Shown piece after piece: positions 4,362-12,071 of a stretch of 64,000 nt of DNA (positions are counted from its first letter, which is position 1; each line of letters begins with the position of its first letter). Source of the DNA: Methanomassiliicoccales archaeon (GTDB taxonomy: Archaea > Thermoplasmatota > Thermoplasmata > Methanomassiliicoccales > UBA472); assembly GCA_036504055.1 (NCBI GenBank), contig DASXVU010000020.1, positions 1 through 64,000 of the forward strand, written 5' to 3'. Position numbers and translations under genes: made by a program. The notes under the pieces are model-generated. The model was not told the origin of the DNA. It made no database searches and saw nothing but the letters and a program-made list of their open reading frames with translations.

Positions 4362-5291
4362 TCAGTTCGGCAACTTCTTGACGTATTTGATGACCGAATT
4401 CGCTGCCGTCGCCCCTTCACTGCAGCTGGTGACGATCTGCCGGTACTTGCCTGGATAAGCTACCGCATCGCCCGCGGCGAACACGCCCTTCCTTGAGGTC
4501 ATCATCTGCTGGCTGACCCGGATGCCTTCGCCCTCCAGGTCAAGGTTCCAACGCCTCAGGTTCTCCGGTTCCGGTGTCATACCGACCTTGATGACCACCA
4601 TGTCCACCGGGACCTCCTCCTCAGCATCCCCGACCTTCAGCACGACCTTCTCGACCTTGCCATCCCCTTCGATCCTCAGTACCTGGGCGTTCATGTAGGT
4701 CCTGATCTCAGACTCCTCCACCCTCTCGATGAAGCAGTGGTCCGCTCGGAATGTGCCCCGGCGGTGCACGATGCAGATGTCGGCGATCTCGCAGACCATC
4801 AGGGCCATCTCGAGCGCGGAGTTGCCTCCCCCGACGAACATGACCCTCTTACCGGCGAAACCCTCCTTGGGGGGCATCATGTAGTGAACGCCCCTGCCCT
4901 CAAACTCCTCCGCCCCTGGTATGTCAAGCTTCTTGGGTATGAAGAAGCCATTGCCAATGGCGACGATGACCGCGGTGGCAGTGTACGACCCTTTGCTGGT
5001 CACGACCCTGAAACCGTCCGGAACATCAATGATCTCCTGGACTATCTCGTTCTCATTGATGCTGCAACCTTTGTTCAGCGCGTGCTCCACAAAGCTCTTG
5101 GAGATATCCTTGCCAGTGACGACCTGGGTTGTGGGGAAATTATGGATCTCCTTTTCCGGATATAGCATTCCCGGCTGTCCGCCAGCCTCCGCCGCATCGA
5201 TGATGACGGTGCGCATCCTGCTCTGCACCGCACAGATGCCTGCCGTCAAACCGGCTGGCCCGCCCCCTATGATGACCAGGTCGTAGTCCAT
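4362..5291 (-). CDS. Thioredoxin-reductase-like flavoprotein without CxxC (ferredoxin-NADP reductase type)
   Basis: The 309-residue pyridine nucleotide-disulfide oxidoreductase fold has the FAD motif GGGPAGLTA at the N-terminus, the NAD(P) motif VGGGNSALE near residue 155 followed by HRR, and the C-terminal FAD motif FAAGDA. At the position where thioredoxin reductases carry the redox-active CxxC the sequence reads GVHYMMPPKEGFAGK, with no cysteine pair. This matches the YumC-like ferredoxin (or flavodoxin)-NADP+ reductase subgroup rather than true TrxB. The HRR motif after the second Rossmann glycines is compatible with NADPH. It is transcribed alone and diverges from the hydrogenase operon. 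A TATA-like stretch about 30 nt upstream suggests a short leader. Confidence 0.8.
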   Translation of the reverse strand: MDYDLVIIGGGPAGLTAGICAVQSRMRTVIIDAAEAGGQPGMLYPEKEIHNFPTTQVVTGKDISKSFVEHALNKGCSINENEIVQEIIDVPDGFRVVTSKGSYTATAVIVAIGNGFFIPKKLDIPGAEEFEGRGVHYMMPPKEGFAGKRVMFVGGGNSALEMALMVCEIADICIVHRRGTFRADHCFIERVEESEIRTYMNAQVLRIEGDGKVEKVVLKVGDAEEEVPVDMVVIKVGMTPEPENLRRWNLDLEGEGIRVSQQMMTSRKGVFAAGDAVAYPGKYRQIVTSCSEGATAANSVIKYVKKLPN

Positions 5292-5639: not shown

Positions 5640-6851
5640 ATGAACGATAATTGTCTTGCTGCCGTGAGGATAAACCAAGACCTCTGCAGCCGATGCAAGG
5701 TATGTTACTCCCTTTGTCCGTTCGATTCCATCGATCTTCAGCCGGAAGAAGGGAGATTGAGCATCGACATCCAAAAATGCCAGGTCTGCGGGATCTGCAC
5801 CAGTGCCTGTCCCGTCTCGGCAATAGAGATGTCATATTACGATTACGAAGGACTATTGGATTACGTCCGTTCGGCAAGCGGTGAGAAGCCGCCAGAGACC
5901 CTGGTGGTGATGTGCAGAGGGAACTCGCCCAGAAACGGGGAGGTGGAGGACATATTGTTCTCCCAGGGTCTGAGCGTTACAGGCTACGTCCCGATGCGCG
6001 TTCCCTGCGCCGGACGGATCCCGACCAATTTCATCTTCCACGCCCTGAAATCGGGGATCAGGAACATCGTATCGATCCAATGCCATGACGAGTTCTGCCG
6101 AATGAAGGAAGGTACCAAGATCGGGACCAGAAGGATGCTCCTGGGACAAGCCCTCGTACAGCAGCTTGGCTACTCCGAGAACGCCCTCAAGGTCGTGAAG
6201 TATTCTCGCAAGGCGATACGCAACAACACAGAGTGCGTCGGTTGCGGCAAATGTGTTTTCATATGTCCTTACGGCGCGATAAAGGGAGAGCCTTTCTCTA
6301 CCCCTGCGACGGACCCAGAGAAATGCATGGGCTGCGGTGCCTGCCAGATCGTCTGCCCGCACCACGCCATCCAAGTGAAGGGCTACGAGTTCGAGCACAT
6401 CATGGCCTCGTATGGAGGGGCAGTTGAGGCGATGAAGGGACGAGGAACCGGGGCATCGGTCCTAGTCATCAGCTGCCAGTGGTCTGAGTATGCCGGTCTG
6501 GACAATCCCGAAAAGATCCTTAAAGGGAAGAACGCCATGATCCTGGAGGTCCCTTGCTTCAAGGGAATGGACCCCGTTCATGTGGTCGGCGCCTTCGGGC
6601 GCGGTTTCGACGGGGTCATGGCGGTCATCTGTTCGGCTGACGACTGCAAGCTCCATCACGGAAGGGACACCTCGGAAAGGCAGCTCAATGTCCTCATGGC
6701 CTACCTGAAGAAGCTGGACCTGCTCGACCGGTTCGAGATACACGAGCTGTCTCCCAGGTGTGATGGCGAGTTCGTAAGCAAGTTCGAGGCCTTCTATGAG
6801 AAGATCTCGCTCATGGCGCCCAGAACGTGCGCTCTGAAGAAGGAGGACTAG
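5640..6851 (+). CDS. Ferredoxin / duplicated MvhD-like hydrogenase iron-sulfur subunit
   Basis: The 403-residue soluble protein is built as two repeats of [two 4Fe-4S sites plus one MvhD/FrhD-like domain]. The first ferredoxin pair uses Cys16, 19, 22, 26 and Cys47, 50, 53, 57. An MvhD-like domain follows from about residue 88 (MCRG, VPCAGRI, then C-x4-C). The second ferredoxin pair is near 195-240 (CVGCGKC, CMGCGAC). A second MvhD-like domain follows (SCQWSEY, VPCFKG, CSADDCKLHHG). MvhD passes electrons from a [NiFe] hydrogenase to a flavin bifurcation site in HdrA. The gene is first in the hydrogenase operon, so a wiring role between hydrogenase and the Nfn-like flavoproteins is inferred. 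It ends in TAG two bases before the next ATG. Confidence 0.85.
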   Translation: MNDNCLAAVRINQDLCSRCKVCYSLCPFDSIDLQPEEGRLSIDIQKCQVCGICTSACPVSAIEMSYYDYEGLLDYVRSASGEKPPETLVVMCRGNSPRNGEVEDILFSQGLSVTGYVPMRVPCAGRIPTNFIFHALKSGIRNIVSIQCHDEFCRMKEGTKIGTRRMLLGQALVQQLGYSENALKVVKYSRKAIRNNTECVGCGKCVFICPYGAIKGEPFSTPATDPEKCMGCGACQIVCPHHAIQVKGYEFEHIMASYGGAVEAMKGRGTGASVLVISCQWSEYAGLDNPEKILKGKNAMILEVPCFKGMDPVHVVGAFGRGFDGVMAVICSADDCKLHHGRDTSERQLNVLMAYLKKLDLLDRFEIHELSPRCDGEFVSKFEAFYEKISLMAPRTCALKKED

Positions 6852-6853
6852 CG

Positions 6854-7696
6854 ATGACCTTCAGAATACTGTCAAAGAGACAGCTCGCCTACAAGAAGAC
6901 GCTGTTCGAGGTGGAGGCCCCGGACGTGGCCGCCAAAGCCCTGCCAGGCCAATTCCTTATCGTTATCGCCAGAGAAGGTGGAGAGAGGGTGCCCCTGACC
7001 ATCTGCGAATACGACCGGCAGAAGGGGACGGTATCCTTCGCCTTCCATGAGGTGGGCAAGACCACCAAGGAGTTGGGCACGCTGAACGAAGGGGACCGGC
7101 TGTTCAACGTCACCGGGCCGCTGGGCAATCCATCCAACATCAGCAGGTTCGGCCGGGTCCTTTGTGTGGGCGGAAGCATCATGATCGCCCCGATACTGCT
7201 CCAGGCAAAGGCGTTGAAGGCGGAAGGGAACCACGTTACCACCGTCCTGGGGTGCCGGGGAGATGAATTCCTCTTCATGAAAGAGGAGGCATCGGCCGTC
7301 AGCGATGAGGTCCATGTCGCTTCCGACGACGGTACGGCAGGCACCAAGGGGCTCGACTTCCTCGAGGAGCTCGTTAGCAGCGAGAGGTTCGACCGCTGCG
7401 TGGTCATGGGTCCGGTCGACATGATGAAAAGGGTGAGCGAGATCACCAGACCATATGGCATCCCGACGTTCGTGACCCTTACCCCGATAATGATCGACGG
7501 CATGGGCATGTGCGGGGTTTGCCGGGTCACGGTCGGCGGTAAGATGATGTTCGGCTGTGTTGACGGCCCAGAGTTCGATGGGCACCAGACGAACTTTGAC
7601 GAACTGATCATGCGCCAGCGTACGATGCTTCCGGAAGAGAGACTGAGTTCCATCCTTTGGGAAACGAACGGAGGCTGCAAGTGTGAAAGGAAATGA
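6854..7696 (+). CDS. NfnA / sulfhydrogenase-gamma-like FAD-NAD(P) [2Fe-2S] subunit
   Basis: This 280-residue ferredoxin-NADP reductase family protein resembles the small subunit of NADH-dependent reduced ferredoxin:NADP oxidoreductase (NfnA) and the gamma subunit of sulfhydrogenase. An FAD-binding barrel comes first (RVPLTI motif), then a nucleotide-binding domain starting at VLCVGGSIMIAP, then a C-terminal [2Fe-2S] cluster with the cysteines in GMGMCGVCRV and MMFGCVDG. I chose the ATG at 6854 because it follows an AAGGAGG ribosome site and begins at the conserved FRIL strand; an upstream start would overlap the previous gene. The 3' end overlaps the NfnB-like gene by 14 nt. Expected role: exchange of electrons with NAD(H) or NADP(H). 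Confidence 0.85.
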   Translation: MTFRILSKRQLAYKKTLFEVEAPDVAAKALPGQFLIVIAREGGERVPLTICEYDRQKGTVSFAFHEVGKTTKELGTLNEGDRLFNVTGPLGNPSNISRFGRVLCVGGSIMIAPILLQAKALKAEGNHVTTVLGCRGDEFLFMKEEASAVSDEVHVASDDGTAGTKGLDFLEELVSSERFDRCVVMGPVDMMKRVSEITRPYGIPTFVTLTPIMIDGMGMCGVCRVTVGGKMMFGCVDGPEFDGHQTNFDELIMRQRTMLPEERLSSILWETNGGCKCERK

Positions 7697-9137
7697 GCCT
7701 GGGAACGTGGAAGCGACTGCCATTTCTTTGAAGGATGAGGATGTCCCGATGCCGAGGCAGGAGCCTCATGAACGGGTCAAGAACTTCAGCGAGGTGGCCC
7801 TGGGCTATACCGAGGAGATGGCGCTCAAAGAGGCCGCCAGATGCCTGAGGTGCAAGAACCCCCAGTGCCGGAAAGGTTGCCCGGTGGATGTGCCGATACC
7901 CGAATTCATCGAATGTATACTGCAGGGTGAGTATGCTGAAGGCATAGCCCTGGTCAAATCAAAGAACGCATTGCCGGCGATCTGTGGACGGGTCTGTCCG
8001 CAGGAACAGCAGTGCCAGATGAAGTGTGTTAAGGGCAAGAAAGGGGATCCGGTCAACATAGGACGGTTGGAGCGTTTCCTGGCCGATTGGGAGAGGGACA
8101 ACGAAGGCTACTGGCCTGAGGCACCGGCCCCGACCGGCAAACGTGTCGCGGTCATCGGGGCGGGACCGGCCGGGCTGACGGCCGCCGCCGACCTGGTCCG
8201 GTCGGGTCATTCGGTCACCCTTTTCGAGGCGCTGCATGTCGGCGGAGGGGTGCTCAGCTACGGCATCCCGGAGTTCCGTCTGCCCAAAGAGATCGTCCAG
8301 AGGGAGATCGACTACGTAAGAAGGCTGGGCGTCGAGATCAAGCTTGGCTATCTCATCGGTAGGATCAAGACCATCCCGGAACTGTTGGGCCAGGGCTACG
8401 ACGCGATATTCATCGGCAGCGGTGCAGGACTGCCGCAGTGGACCGGCTGCCCGGGGGAGAATCTGGGCGGGATATACTCGGCGAACGAGTTCCTGATCCG
8501 GGTCAACCTGATGAAGGCATACGCGTTCCCAGAGCAGGACACGCCGATACGGGTCGGAAAGCATTTGGTGGTGATCGGCGGGGGGAACGTGGCCATCGAC
8601 TGCGCCCGCATATCGATGAGGCTTGGAGCGACCGTCTGCCTGAACTACCGGCGCTCCCGGAACGAACTTCCCGCTAGAAGGGAGGAGATCGAGAACGCCG
8701 AAGAGGAGGGCCTGGCATGCAAGTTCCTAAGTGCCCCGGTCGAATTCTATGGCGATGAGAAGGGCTGGGTAAAGTCGATGCGGTGCACCTGCATGGAGCT
8801 GACCGAACCGGACGAGAAAGGTAGGCAAGGGGTCCAACCGATCCCCTGTTCAGACTTCGAGATCCCGGTCGATACGGTCATCATCGCCATCGGGCAGACC
8901 CCAAACCCGATCATCCAGCGCACGACCGAGGGATTGATGACAAACCCGCGGAACGGGACCATCGTGGTCGATGCGGAAGGAAGGACCAACCTGGAAGGGG
9001 TCTATGCCGGAGGGGACATAGCCACCGGTGCGGCGACCGTCATCAGCGCCATGGGCGCCGGAAAGCGTGCGGCCAGGTCGATCCACAGGTATCTCATGGA
9101 AACACCGAGGGGGGAGCGAACATCGACCGGAAACTGA
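7683..9137 (+). CDS. NfnB / GltA-like FAD oxidoreductase with N-terminal 4Fe-4S sites
   Basis: The 484-residue homologue of the glutamate synthase small subunit/NfnB family has cysteine sets for two 4Fe-4S clusters at the N-terminus (CLRCKNPQCRKGC and CGRVCPQEQQCQMKC), an FAD Rossmann motif (VIGAGPAGLTAA), an NADPH-type motif (VIGGGNVAIDCA) with following RRS residues, and the C-terminal FAD motif YAGGDIATG. In NfnB this FAD is the bifurcating centre. The product is also a structural cousin of the flavin part of HdrA, the usual partner of MvhADG. The start is GTG at 7683, inside nfnA, and the ATG at 7749 is an alternative. Glutamate synthase large subunit is not encoded beside it, which favours an electron-transfer role over glutamate synthesis. 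Confidence 0.86.
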   Translation: MKGNEPGNVEATAISLKDEDVPMPRQEPHERVKNFSEVALGYTEEMALKEAARCLRCKNPQCRKGCPVDVPIPEFIECILQGEYAEGIALVKSKNALPAICGRVCPQEQQCQMKCVKGKKGDPVNIGRLERFLADWERDNEGYWPEAPAPTGKRVAVIGAGPAGLTAAADLVRSGHSVTLFEALHVGGGVLSYGIPEFRLPKEIVQREIDYVRRLGVEIKLGYLIGRIKTIPELLGQGYDAIFIGSGAGLPQWTGCPGENLGGIYSANEFLIRVNLMKAYAFPEQDTPIRVGKHLVVIGGGNVAIDCARISMRLGATVCLNYRRSRNELPARREEIENAEEEGLACKFLSAPVEFYGDEKGWVKSMRCTCMELTEPDEKGRQGVQPIPCSDFEIPVDTVIIAIGQTPNPIIQRTTEGLMTNPRNGTIVVDAEGRTNLEGVYAGGDIATGAATVISAMGAGKRAARSIHRYLMETPRGERTSTGN

Positions 9138-10084
9138 GGATCGCGTTCTACTGGGCGGCCAGCTGCGGCGGCTGCGAGATAGCCGTGCTGGACATCAACG
9201 AGAAGATCCTCGATGTGGTGGAAGCGGCCGACATCGTCTTCTGGCCAGTGGCAATGGACATCAAGTACGACGCGGTGGAGGCCATGCCGGACGGTCACAT
9301 CGACGTCACGTTCTTCAATGGCTCGATCCGCAACAGCGAACAGGAGCACATGGCGAGGTTGCTTCGCTCGAAATCAGCCACCCTGATCGCATTCGGTTCC
9401 TGCGCCCATGAGGGCTGCGTGCCCGGCCTGGCTAATCTCAGCGACTCAAAGGGGATATTGGGAACGGTCTACCATGACAATGGCCAGGTCATCCCCAATC
9501 CGGAGACGCCGGTGAAGGAAGGGACGCTCCGGATACCCAGGTTCTACGACACCGTCCGGACGCTAGGCCAGACCGTCGACGTGGACTATTATCTGCCCGG
9601 CTGCCCCCCGCCGGTGGCGTTGATCACAAATGCGTTGGAAGCTATTGTGAAGGGCGAACTGCCTCCGAAAGGGTCGGTGCTAGCACCATTGCCGGCAGTG
9701 TGCGACCAATGCCCACGCATCCGTGAGAACAAGCTCATCTCCAGCATCCGCCGGGTGCACGAAACGGTCCCGGAACCGGAACGCTGTCTCATGGAGCAGG
9801 GGATCATCTGCATGGGGATGGCCACCCGCAGCGGGTGCGGGGCGGCATGCCTCAAAGTGGACATGCCCTGCACCGGCTGCGGCGGGGCGGCGCCGAACCA
9901 GCCTGACGTGGGTGCCGGGATGATCACGGCCCTGGCAGCCATTCTGGACCTGGACAAGGACTCCGGGAAGCACTCCGATGAGGAGGTGGTCAAGCTCATC
10001 GGGCAGATCAAGGACCCGGTGGGCATCTTCTACATGTATAGCCTGCCCTCGTCCATCCTACAGGGGAAAGTGGTGAAACAATGA
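9122..10084 (+). CDS. [NiFe]-hydrogenase small subunit, MvhG-like (unusual start)
   Basis: Group 3c-like small subunit that carries the electron-transfer [4Fe-4S] clusters. Family marks are the CGGC near the N-terminus (proximal cluster), GSCAHEGCVPG, VDYYLPGCPPP, VCDQCPR and the C-terminal cysteine-rich region with CTGCGG, all as in methanogen F420-non-reducing hydrogenase. No ATG, GTG or TTG precedes the CGGC in this frame. The first standard start (GTG at 9185) would delete that cluster ligand. The best site by spacing is ATC at 9122, six nucleotides after GGGGGGAG. CTG at 9134 is an alternative that overlaps the preceding TGA as CTGA. The 3' end overlaps the large subunit gene by ATGA. 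Confidence 0.83.
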   Translation: MDRKLRIAFYWAASCGGCEIAVLDINEKILDVVEAADIVFWPVAMDIKYDAVEAMPDGHIDVTFFNGSIRNSEQEHMARLLRSKSATLIAFGSCAHEGCVPGLANLSDSKGILGTVYHDNGQVIPNPETPVKEGTLRIPRFYDTVRTLGQTVDVDYYLPGCPPPVALITNALEAIVKGELPPKGSVLAPLPAVCDQCPRIRENKLISSIRRVHETVPEPERCLMEQGIICMGMATRSGCGAACLKVDMPCTGCGGAAPNQPDVGAGMITALAAILDLDKDSGKHSDEEVVKLIGQIKDPVGIFYMYSLPSSILQGKVVKQ

Positions 10085-11532
10085 AGGAGATCAATATCGA
10101 CCCGATCACCAGGCTTGAAGGGCATGGCAGCGTTTCCATCTTTCTCAACGACGCCGGCGAAGTGGAGAACGCGTACCTGAAGGTGCCTGAGCTGCGGGGA
10201 TTCGAGGCTTTCTGCGTTGGACGCCCGGCCGAGCTGATGCCCCAGATAACCAGCCGGATCTGTGGAGTATGCCCGGTGGCGCATCACCTCGCTTCGGTGA
10301 AGGCGCTGGATGCGGCGTTCGGCGTCTCCCCGCCCAACACCGCGAAGAAGCTGCGGGAGCTTCAGTACATGGGCTCCTTTATCGGTGACCATACGCTGCA
10401 CTTCTACTATCTGGGCGGGCCGGACTTCATCGTCGGACCGGATGCTCCGGCGAACAAGCGCAACATCCTGGGTGTCATCGAGAAGGCGGGCCTGGACGTG
10501 GCCAAGGAGGTCATCAAGCACCGTGCTTACGGCCAAAAGATCTCTGAGATCATCGGTGGTAAGTCGACCCATCCTGTGGCAGGCCTGCCAGGTGGCATGA
10601 GCAAGGCCCTCAGCGAGGAATCGCGGCTGTCGGTACTGGAGATGTCGAGGTCTTCGGTCAAGTTCGCCCAGTTCACGCTCCAACTCTTCCACGATCTGGT
10701 ATTGGACAACCCGAAATACATGGACATGATCAAGAGCGATGCCTATACCATGAGGACCTACTACATGGGCACGGTGGATGCCAAGAACCGGGTCAATTTC
10801 TATGACGGCGAGGTGCGCATCGTTGACCCATCGGGAAAGGAGTTCGAGAGGTTTGCGGCTAAGGACTATGCCGAGCACATCATCGAGCGGTCGGAGGAAT
10901 GGACCTATTCCAAGTTCCCCTACCTGAGGAATGTCGGCTGGAACGGCTTCAAGGCCGGGGCGGACAACGGCATCTACCGCGTTGGTCCGCTGGGACGCCT
11001 GAACACCGCTGACGGAATGGCCACGCCTCTGGCCCAGGCGGAATACGACAGGATGTTCGGAACGCTGGGCAAGCCAGCGCATGGGACGCTGGTGTTCCAT
11101 TGGGCAAGGCTCATCGAACTGTTATACGCCTCCGAACGGGCGGTGGAGCTGGCGAGCGATCCGGAGATAACCGGAACCCACGTCAGGAACATGCCCGGAG
11201 CACCCGGGGAAGGGGTCGGCATCGTCGAGGCGGCGAGAGGTACGCTCATTCACCACTACCGTCTTGACCAGGACGCGCTGGTCAAGAATGTCAACCTGAT
11301 CGTCGCCACAACGAACAATTATCCGGCCATCTGCATGAGCATTCGGGATGCCGCCCAAGGCCTGATCCATGGAGGTTCGGTTGACGAGAAGGTCTTGAAC
11401 AAGGTGGAGATGGCCTTCCGGGCCTACGATCCCTGCTTCGGGTGCGCCACTCACTTCGCGGTGGGACAGATGCCCCTGGAGATCCAGGTGTATGATGACA
11501 AAAAGCAGCTGCTCAGAACGGTGACACGCTAG
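10081..11532 (+). CDS. [NiFe]-hydrogenase large subunit, MvhA-like (group 3)
   Basis: Catalytic subunit holding the NiFe(CN)2CO site. The four cysteine ligands are present: RICGVC (Cys61, Cys64) and DPCFGC (Cys452, Cys455). The N-terminal ITRLEGHG motif is intact, and 'RICGVCPVAHHLAS' resembles group 3c (Mvh) enzymes more than group 3b. The 25-residue tail after DPCFGCATH is the peptide removed by a maturation endopeptidase, which is encoded next. Length (483) is normal. Start is ATG at 10081, overlapping the small subunit stop. It ends in TAG. Inference: cytoplasmic H2 oxidation feeding the MvhD-like and Nfn-like subunits of the same operon. Confidence 0.92.
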   Translation: MKEINIDPITRLEGHGSVSIFLNDAGEVENAYLKVPELRGFEAFCVGRPAELMPQITSRICGVCPVAHHLASVKALDAAFGVSPPNTAKKLRELQYMGSFIGDHTLHFYYLGGPDFIVGPDAPANKRNILGVIEKAGLDVAKEVIKHRAYGQKISEIIGGKSTHPVAGLPGGMSKALSEESRLSVLEMSRSSVKFAQFTLQLFHDLVLDNPKYMDMIKSDAYTMRTYYMGTVDAKNRVNFYDGEVRIVDPSGKEFERFAAKDYAEHIIERSEEWTYSKFPYLRNVGWNGFKAGADNGIYRVGPLGRLNTADGMATPLAQAEYDRMFGTLGKPAHGTLVFHWARLIELLYASERAVELASDPEITGTHVRNMPGAPGEGVGIVEAARGTLIHHYRLDQDALVKNVNLIVATTNNYPAICMSIRDAAQGLIHGGSVDEKVLNKVEMAFRAYDPCFGCATHFAVGQMPLEIQVYDDKKQLLRTVTR

Positions 11533-11543
11533 GTCCAGGCTGC

Positions 11544-12071
11544 ATGGCCGCTTGTCTTCAGGATCAAGGTGGCAAATTGTACGACCACACTCGGGAAATG
11601 GAGGAGGAATTGAGGGCCTGGCTGGATGGGGCGACCGGGGCGGTCGTGGCCGGGATCGGCAATGCCATCCGCTCGGACGACTTTGTGGGCGTGAGGATCG
11701 TTGAGAGCCTCGAGGGAAAGGTATCCGAAAAGGTCCATCTGATCGAGTGCGAAACTGTGCCGGAGAGCTTCGTGGATGAGATCGTCGAGGTCATTCCATC
11801 ACATGTCCTCCTGATCGACGCCGCGTTGCTCGGCCTGGAACCGGGATCGGTCCATCTGTATGAGGCCGAGGAAGTGACGAACGTTCCCTCGATATCCACC
11901 CATACCCTTCCGCTCAGGGTGTTCTGCGAATATGTCAGAAAAATGACCGGCGCTAGGATCGCCCTATTGCTGATCGAGCCGACGAACGTTGACTTCGGCG
12001 AGGGACTGACCCCGGAGACCGAGGCGGCCGCCATAAGGGTGGAGATGGCGCTCCTGAAATATCTGCCCTGA
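11544..12071 (+). CDS. Hydrogenase maturation endopeptidase (HycI/HyaD family)
   Basis: Nickel-dependent protease that clips the C-terminal peptide from the [NiFe] large subunit once nickel is in place. The 175-residue product has the family motif GIGNAIRSDDFVG, the acidic residue in IECETVPE, the DAALLG stretch and a conserved His region (STHTLPL), all expected for peptidase family M52. It begins 11 nt after the large subunit stop, the last gene of the operon. ATG at 11544 is used here; ATG at 11598 (residue 19) is an equally plausible start because the family usually begins just before the GIGN strand. Confidence 0.87.
   Translation: MAACLQDQGGKLYDHTREMEEELRAWLDGATGAVVAGIGNAIRSDDFVGVRIVESLEGKVSEKVHLIECETVPESFVDEIVEVIPSHVLLIDAALLGLEPGSVHLYEAEEVTNVPSISTHTLPLRVFCEYVRKMTGARIALLLIEPTNVDFGEGLTPETEAAAIRVEMALLKYLP

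Follow-up and report, generated by a model that had tools for sequence, protein, structure and literature searches.

A conserved hydrogenase-Nfn operon in Methanomassiliicoccales that combines MvhGA with an FMM-NfnAB module

Genes and conserved sites of the operon

We analyzed a stretch of 64,000 nucleotides from a Methanomassiliicoccales genome (the window; positions 1 to 64,000 of contig DASXVU010000020.1), in which six tightly packed genes occupy positions 5640-12071 of the forward strand. Pfam and NCBIfam profiles identify them, in this order, as FMM (an iron-sulfur protein with a duplicated ferredoxin-MvhD architecture), NfnA, NfnB, an MvhG-like and an MvhA-like [NiFe] hydrogenase subunit, and a HycI protease. 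The composition and order given in the initial annotation thus hold. The features are listed below (FAD, flavin adenine dinucleotide; NAD and NADP, nicotinamide adenine dinucleotide and its phosphate).

5640..6851, + strand: FMM, duplicated unit of two 4Fe-4S ferredoxin motifs plus an MvhD/FlpD domain, 403 residues (profile matches, ligand alignment, Foldseek)
6854..7696, + strand: NfnA (NfnS), predicted to bind FAD, NAD(H) and a 2Fe-2S cluster, with an extra conserved C-terminal CxC tail (profiles, structure match, alignment)
7683..9137, + strand: NfnB (NfnL), 484 residues, GTG start (profiles, structure match, alignment)
9122..10084, + strand: MvhG-like [NiFe] small subunit, 320 residues, three predicted 4Fe-4S clusters, likely AUC start (profiles, structure match, alignment)
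9122..9124, + strand: non-AUG start codon ATC, with GGGGGAG ahead of it (orthologue comparison)
10081..11532, + strand: MvhA-like [NiFe] large subunit, both CxxC nickel motifs, C-terminal extension (profiles, structure match, alignment, tree)
11544..12071, + strand: HycI-type hydrogenase maturation protease (TIGR00072, 102 bits against a cut-off of 47)
4362..5291, - strand: flavoprotein of the thioredoxin reductase (TrxR) fold without CxxC, ferredoxin-NADP reductase-like, divergent from the operon (profile match, alignment)

The start of NfnA was corrected to the ATG at 6854, and FMM ends at 6851. The overlaps are 14 nucleotides between nfnA and nfnB, 16 between nfnB and the small-subunit gene (if the latter starts at ATC 9122) and 4 between the two hydrogenase genes; the protease gene lies 11 nucleotides downstream of the large-subunit gene. 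Genes for HdrA, HdrB, HdrC or a separate MvhD were not found inside the operon. No Rfam family matches within the window, and a promoter and terminator scan of it stayed at chance level, its consensus being bacterial and the host an archaeon.

Pfam and NCBIfam profiles match FMM in two FlpD/MvhD stretches and at four 4Fe-4S motifs. Its halves share 24% identity (E 4e-14), and each matches the C-terminal end of HdrA2 (residues 575-773 of 777), which forms a ferredoxin-MvhD tail. The protein is predicted to carry four 4Fe-4S clusters plus two 2Fe-2S sites of the MvhD type; the corresponding 16 ferredoxin cysteines and 8 MvhD-domain cysteines (C92, C123, C148 and C153 in the first domain; C279, C306, C331 and C336 in the second) are invariant among about 20 orthologues drawn from Methanomassiliicoccales and Bathyarchaeia. 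A profile comparison pairs the second MvhD domain with the host's own canonical MvhD (98% probability). The four best Foldseek matches of the FMM model are all MvhD structures, with template modeling scores of 0.78-0.79 on the target for 5odc_D and 5odh_D. Given the modest confidence of the model, we based no statement on its inter-domain geometry.

The closest solved structures for NfnA and NfnB are the Thermotoga and Pyrococcus Nfn enzymes. NfnA scores 344 bits against PRK06222 (cut-off 220) and 52 bits against its distant homologue HydG of group 3b hydrogenases. Its FAD/NAD domain is present and intact, and the Asp and three Cys of its 2Fe-2S site (D215, C220, C223 and C235) are invariant in 23 of 23 sequences. 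FMM-linked NfnA proteins (window ~7675-7693; L160-L207) mostly carry a conserved CxC tail, for example GGCKCERK, which extends past the part that aligns with solved Nfn structures. NfnB, the single NfnB match in the host genome, reaches 588 bits against TIGR01316 (gltA; cut-off 472) and has two predicted 4Fe-4S clusters, a bifurcating-type FAD domain and an NADP(H) Rossmann domain with a YRRS motif. Its cluster ligands (C54-C66, C101-C115 and E130) are invariant among about 20 orthologues. In the structure-match alignment, E130 corresponds to E126 of Pyrococcus NfnL, a glutamate ligand of the proximal cluster whose change to cysteine loosens the coupling of the two branches (PMC9503767).

For the hydrogenase, NCBIfam returned a VhuG-like small and a VhuA-like large subunit, the latter with 424-425 bits against VhuA (equivalog cut-off 800) and 130 bits against HydA. 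Since both subunits score under their equivalog cut-offs, we regard them as Mvh/Vhu relatives rather than standard members. Their closest solved structures are MvhA and MvhG from Methanothermococcus. Twelve small-subunit cysteines, matching three 4Fe-4S clusters, and the nickel-binding CxxC motifs of the large subunit (C61/C64 and C452/C455) are likewise invariant in about 20 orthologues.

The mechanically assigned start of the small subunit, GTG 9185, is impossible, since the invariant WAASCGGCE motif of the proximal cluster precedes it. The frame contains no ATG, GTG or TTG upstream of this motif, and ATC 9122 is the most likely start. At the equivalent position, 10 of 14 Methanomassiliicoccales orthologues (the window and L039-L051) have ATC or ATA, 3 have ATG and 1 (L050) has neither; the ATC/ATA codons are preceded by a strong G run of the Shine-Dalgarno kind. 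For L045, an in-frame ATG further on is a second possible start. ATG is found at this position in Bathyarchaeia and in all canonical MvhG paralogues of the order. The non-AUG start, together with the nfnB overlap, suggests a weak initiation that may be translationally coupled to nfnB, so that synthesis of the hydrogenase would be tied to that of NfnB. A programmed frameshift from NfnB into the small subunit was rejected on inspection of the sequence, as the GGGGGG run offers no convincing slippery site and L039 and L051 have in-frame stops just upstream.

Distribution and probable origin of the two modules

Among 61 relatives, the large subunits fall mainly into two classes. Most members of the order have canonical HdrA-linked MvhA (~47-56% identity). 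The operon type (77-85% identity) occurs in the family to which the host belongs and, outside it, in a single genus of another family. Wherever an operon-type locus is long enough to judge (L039-L050), the six genes stand in unchanged order, giving 13 Methanomassiliicoccales loci, and HdrA and HdrBC genes are absent from the operon in 13/13. Conservation of the gene set across these loci at 60-85% protein identity rules out a chance assembly. What is new here is how known modules are combined, not the kind of protein.

Of 390 genomes of the phylum, 14 have FMM (operon type in 11), as do 72 of 221 genomes sampled from the class of the bathyarchaeal genome G422. In Bathyarchaeia, NfnA and NfnB directly follow FMM in 21 of 22 loci sampled from FMM matches. 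FMM is an Nfn subunit first and a hydrogenase adaptor second, because FMM-NfnAB forms a free-standing three-gene module in many Bathyarchaeia. The module is thus not peculiar to this operon. In the class of G422, MvhA-type subunits are present in 62 of 72 FMM genomes versus 51 of 149 others, an odds ratio of 12 when shared ancestry is ignored. FMM was not detected in bacterial genomes with related hydrogenases, nor in such genomes of Thermoplasmata, Theionarchaea and Woesearchaeota. Distant homologues (~34-36% identity) with no adjoining NfnAB occur in L156 and L157 (other Thermoplasmatota), L210, L213, L221 and L222; those of L210, L213 and L221 lie near a hydrogenase.

In the large-subunit tree, 15 Methanomassiliicoccales sequences form one clade (support 100) nested among bathyarchaeal MvhA. 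The nearest bathyarchaeal MvhGA genes are directly preceded by HdrC-HdrB, without HdrA or MvhD. In the NfnB and FMM trees, the closest neighbors of Methanomassiliicoccales are free-standing modules from this bathyarchaeal lineage (G422, G490, G614, G661 and G804), with L062 and L065 located in G490 and G614. All three trees thus place the clade beside the same bathyarchaeal genomes, in which the two modules are unlinked. Linkage of MvhGA to Nfn requires a minimum of three changes in the hydrogenase tree, and the trees show an exchange of partners. The first case is the Methanomassiliicoccales operon, the second a bathyarchaeal clade (L104, L105, L108, L202, L214 and L216) with HdrA and HdrCB downstream, and the third L211/L212, with the different order small subunit-large subunit-protease-FMM-NfnA. 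The simplest reading of these trees is that both modules came from one bathyarchaeal lineage and were joined into one operon, with HdrCB left out; the direction of this putative transfer follows from the nesting of Methanomassiliicoccales within bathyarchaeal genes.

Two further arrangements were noted. Eight bathyarchaeal loci (L080, L085, L087, L088, L090, L091, L093 and L100) contain a contiguous cluster of an NfnB-like protein (~573 residues), MvhD, HdrA, MvhD, MvhG, MvhA and protease; L080, read in detail, has HdrC-HdrB ahead of MvhG. Such clusters represent another, HdrA-containing tie between an NfnB-type flavoprotein and Mvh-Hdr. Upstream of FMM, bathyarchaeal operons usually carry a true CxxC thioredoxin reductase. 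The flavoprotein at 4362-5291 on the reverse strand of the window is close to ferredoxin-NADP reductases and not clearly part of the operon unit. We rejected TrxR as a fixed fourth member of the module, since the neighbor in the window lacks CxxC and its arrangement is common only to L041.

Proposed complex and alternative readings

The six genes probably encode one soluble complex, MvhGA-FMM-NfnAB, that would link H2 to NADP(H) and NAD(H), likely with ferredoxin as a further partner. In such a complex, the large subunit would cleave H2 at its [NiFe] site, and the electrons would travel along the small subunit's three 4Fe-4S clusters and reach FMM at an MvhD-type 2Fe-2S domain. From there, the FMM ferredoxin clusters would pass them to the 4Fe-4S chain of NfnB and on to its FAD. 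The NfnB FAD would exchange electrons with NADP(H), and the 2Fe-2S cluster and FAD of NfnA with NAD(H); ferredoxin could possibly enter at FMM or at the cluster end of NfnB. Compared with MvhADG-HdrABC, FMM would assume the role of MvhD and of the HdrA C-terminal tail, and NfnAB would stand in place of HdrABC. The idea that an NfnB-centered unit occupies the usual place of HdrA(BC) had been put forward in the initial annotation, and it gains support from the lack of Hdr and MvhD genes in the operon, from the likeness of the FMM halves to the HdrA2 tail and from the position of the nearest MvhGA relatives beside HdrCB.

Our more specific proposal, a tentative one that we place not far below an even chance, is a group 3c-type [NiFe] hydrogenase with the NfnB FAD as bifurcating flavin instead of HdrA. 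It would be wired via FMM, would couple H2, NADP(H), NAD(H) and ferredoxin, and would have been born when a methanogen took up and fused two bathyarchaeal modules. True bifurcation or confurcation by the complex is possible but somewhat doubtful: judged from the sequence, direct reduction of NADP+ by H2 or confurcation fits equally well as the originally suggested bifurcation toward ferredoxin and NAD(P)H. The likely job of the complex would be to supply NADPH from H2, with NADH or reduced ferredoxin assisting at low H2, and the reverse may also occur; at high H2 it could reduce ferredoxin and NAD+. In methanogenic habitats, where the H2 pressure is low, H2 by itself does not suffice to charge the NADPH pool, and help from reduced ferredoxin would thus make sense.

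The host genome (2.66 Mb) carries mcrA, and its relatives are named Methanomassiliicoccales or Methanomassiliicoccus. Since canonical HdrA-MvhDGA is present on a separate contig (C37), the operon specifies an additional enzyme, and replacement of the canonical Mvh-Hdr system is ruled out. No genome of the order passes the profile cut-off for npdG (F420H2:NADP reductase), which leaves room for another source of NADPH. Three more clusters on host contigs C19, C34 and C48 (L053-L055) encode hydrogenase-large-subunit-like proteins with membrane subunits (group 4 or Fpo-like).

Several points weigh against the proposed complex. Most bathyarchaeal FMM-NfnAB operons have no adjoining hydrogenase, and other proteins may donate electrons to FMM. 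A single locus, L220, continues from FMM-NfnA-NfnB directly into HdrC-HdrB with no hydrogenase in the stretch; this layout hints that FMM-NfnAB may also feed HdrBC. The FMM-MvhA co-occurrence test carries no correction for shared ancestry. Members of the order that lack the operon also fall below the npdG cut-off, which weakens the NADPH argument. The FMM model is of modest confidence (predicted local distance difference test score 62.5), and all models are monomers only.

A chemical variant of the same complex would be a plain, non-bifurcating hydrogenase in a group 3b-like role, reducing NADP+ (and NAD+) with H2 and not using ferredoxin as a substrate. The presence of both nucleotide-binding flavoproteins and the distant homology of NfnA to group 3b HydG are in line with it. 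NfnB, however, keeps a complete low-potential branch with its site-differentiated glutamate ligand, and NfnA keeps the Asp and three Cys of its 2Fe-2S site. We consider this variant doubtful, as bifurcation hardware would be free to decay in such an enzyme.

It is unlikely that NfnAB, with FMM as a ferredoxin-like partner, is a separate transhydrogenase merely co-transcribed with MvhGA and connected to it by soluble ferredoxin. Thermotoga and Pyrococcus NfnAB indeed need no hydrogenase (PMC6405883), and the stand-alone state of most bathyarchaeal modules points the same way. But FMM contains two domains of the MvhD kind, a known electron acceptor for MvhG or formate dehydrogenase, and the operon offers no other MvhD gene. 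The repeated linkage changes on the hydrogenase tree, the FMM-MvhA co-occurrence and the overlap of nfnB with the small-subunit gene also argue for a functional tie. Finally, a fuller HdrBC-MvhGA-FMM-NfnAB machine, in which H2, NADP(H) and heterodisulfide meet and of which the operon shows a part, would fit the HdrC-HdrB genes ahead of the sister bathyarchaeal MvhGA and the gene order of L220 but is improbable, because no Methanomassiliicoccales locus has an Hdr gene in the operon and the genome has its own canonical HdrA-MvhDGA.

Comparison with known systems and implications

We compared the operon with described enzymes. It shares with group 3c MvhADG-HdrABC (5odc) homologues of MvhA and MvhG with full NiFe and cluster ligands and an MvhD-type adaptor domain. 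That system, however, has HdrA, HdrB, HdrC and a separate MvhD, whereas here MvhD occurs twice, fused to ferredoxin, and the flavoproteins are NfnA and NfnB; genetic linkage to Hdr is not obligatory in methanogens, and the host HdrA lies on C37. With NfnAB/NfnSL (4ylf, 5jca and 5vj7) it has NfnA and NfnB in common, including all cluster ligands and the FAD and NAD(P) domains, but it differs by the constant FMM neighbor, the NfnA CxC tail and the [NiFe] hydrogenase. The bifurcating NiFe-HydABCSL of Acetomicrobium mobile (7t2r; PMC8880783) is alike in its type of reaction between H2, NAD and ferredoxin but uses NuoE/F/G-like HydABC and flavin mononucleotide (FMN). We rejected identity with it, as none of the six operon genes matches the NuoE/F/G families. 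The group 3b sulfhydrogenase HydBGDA of Pyrococcus is a soluble hydrogenase with an NfnA-related NAD(P) flavoprotein but has no counterpart of NfnB or FMM, and the operon's hydrogenase subunits are group 3c-like; the scores reported above (130 bits for HydA versus 425 for VhuA; 52 for HydG versus 344 for PRK06222) exclude this identity as well. Sporomusa-type Nfn, StnABC (PMC7483475), is likewise a transhydrogenase that has a GltD/NfnB-like component and additional Fe-S subunits, but its partners are Nuo-like and it has neither hydrogenase nor MvhD.

The nearest published ideas are the HdrA-NfnB fusions of ANME-1 archaea (PMC9012536) and type III HdrA with a GltD insert (PMC12054007), which also join an NfnB-like domain to Hdr/Mvh electron transfer. 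There, NfnB or GltD is inserted in HdrA, whereas in the operon NfnB is separate, HdrA is absent, and a complete NfnAB is combined with its own hydrogenase. No earlier description of this operon was found in the open-access literature, the only kind searched, in agreement with the initial view that no well-described archaeal example with this make-up is known. A 2014 survey of three Methanomassiliicoccales genomes counted one mvhA and one mvhG in each (PMC4153887), which fits the absence of biochemical work on the operon. The operon is real and conserved, and apparently undescribed.

Hydrogenotrophic life at low H2 hinges on lifting the electrons of H2 to ferredoxin or NADPH, a task for which the [NiFe] enzymes known so far rely on HdrA or on a unit of the FMN/Nuo type. 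If our proposal is true, an Nfn-based solution would show that MvhGA is a plug-in module whose bifurcating partner can be swapped via an MvhD adaptor. It would also suggest where Methanomassiliicoccales obtain NADPH, and likewise the Bathyarchaeia, which abound in sediments and often carry FMM.

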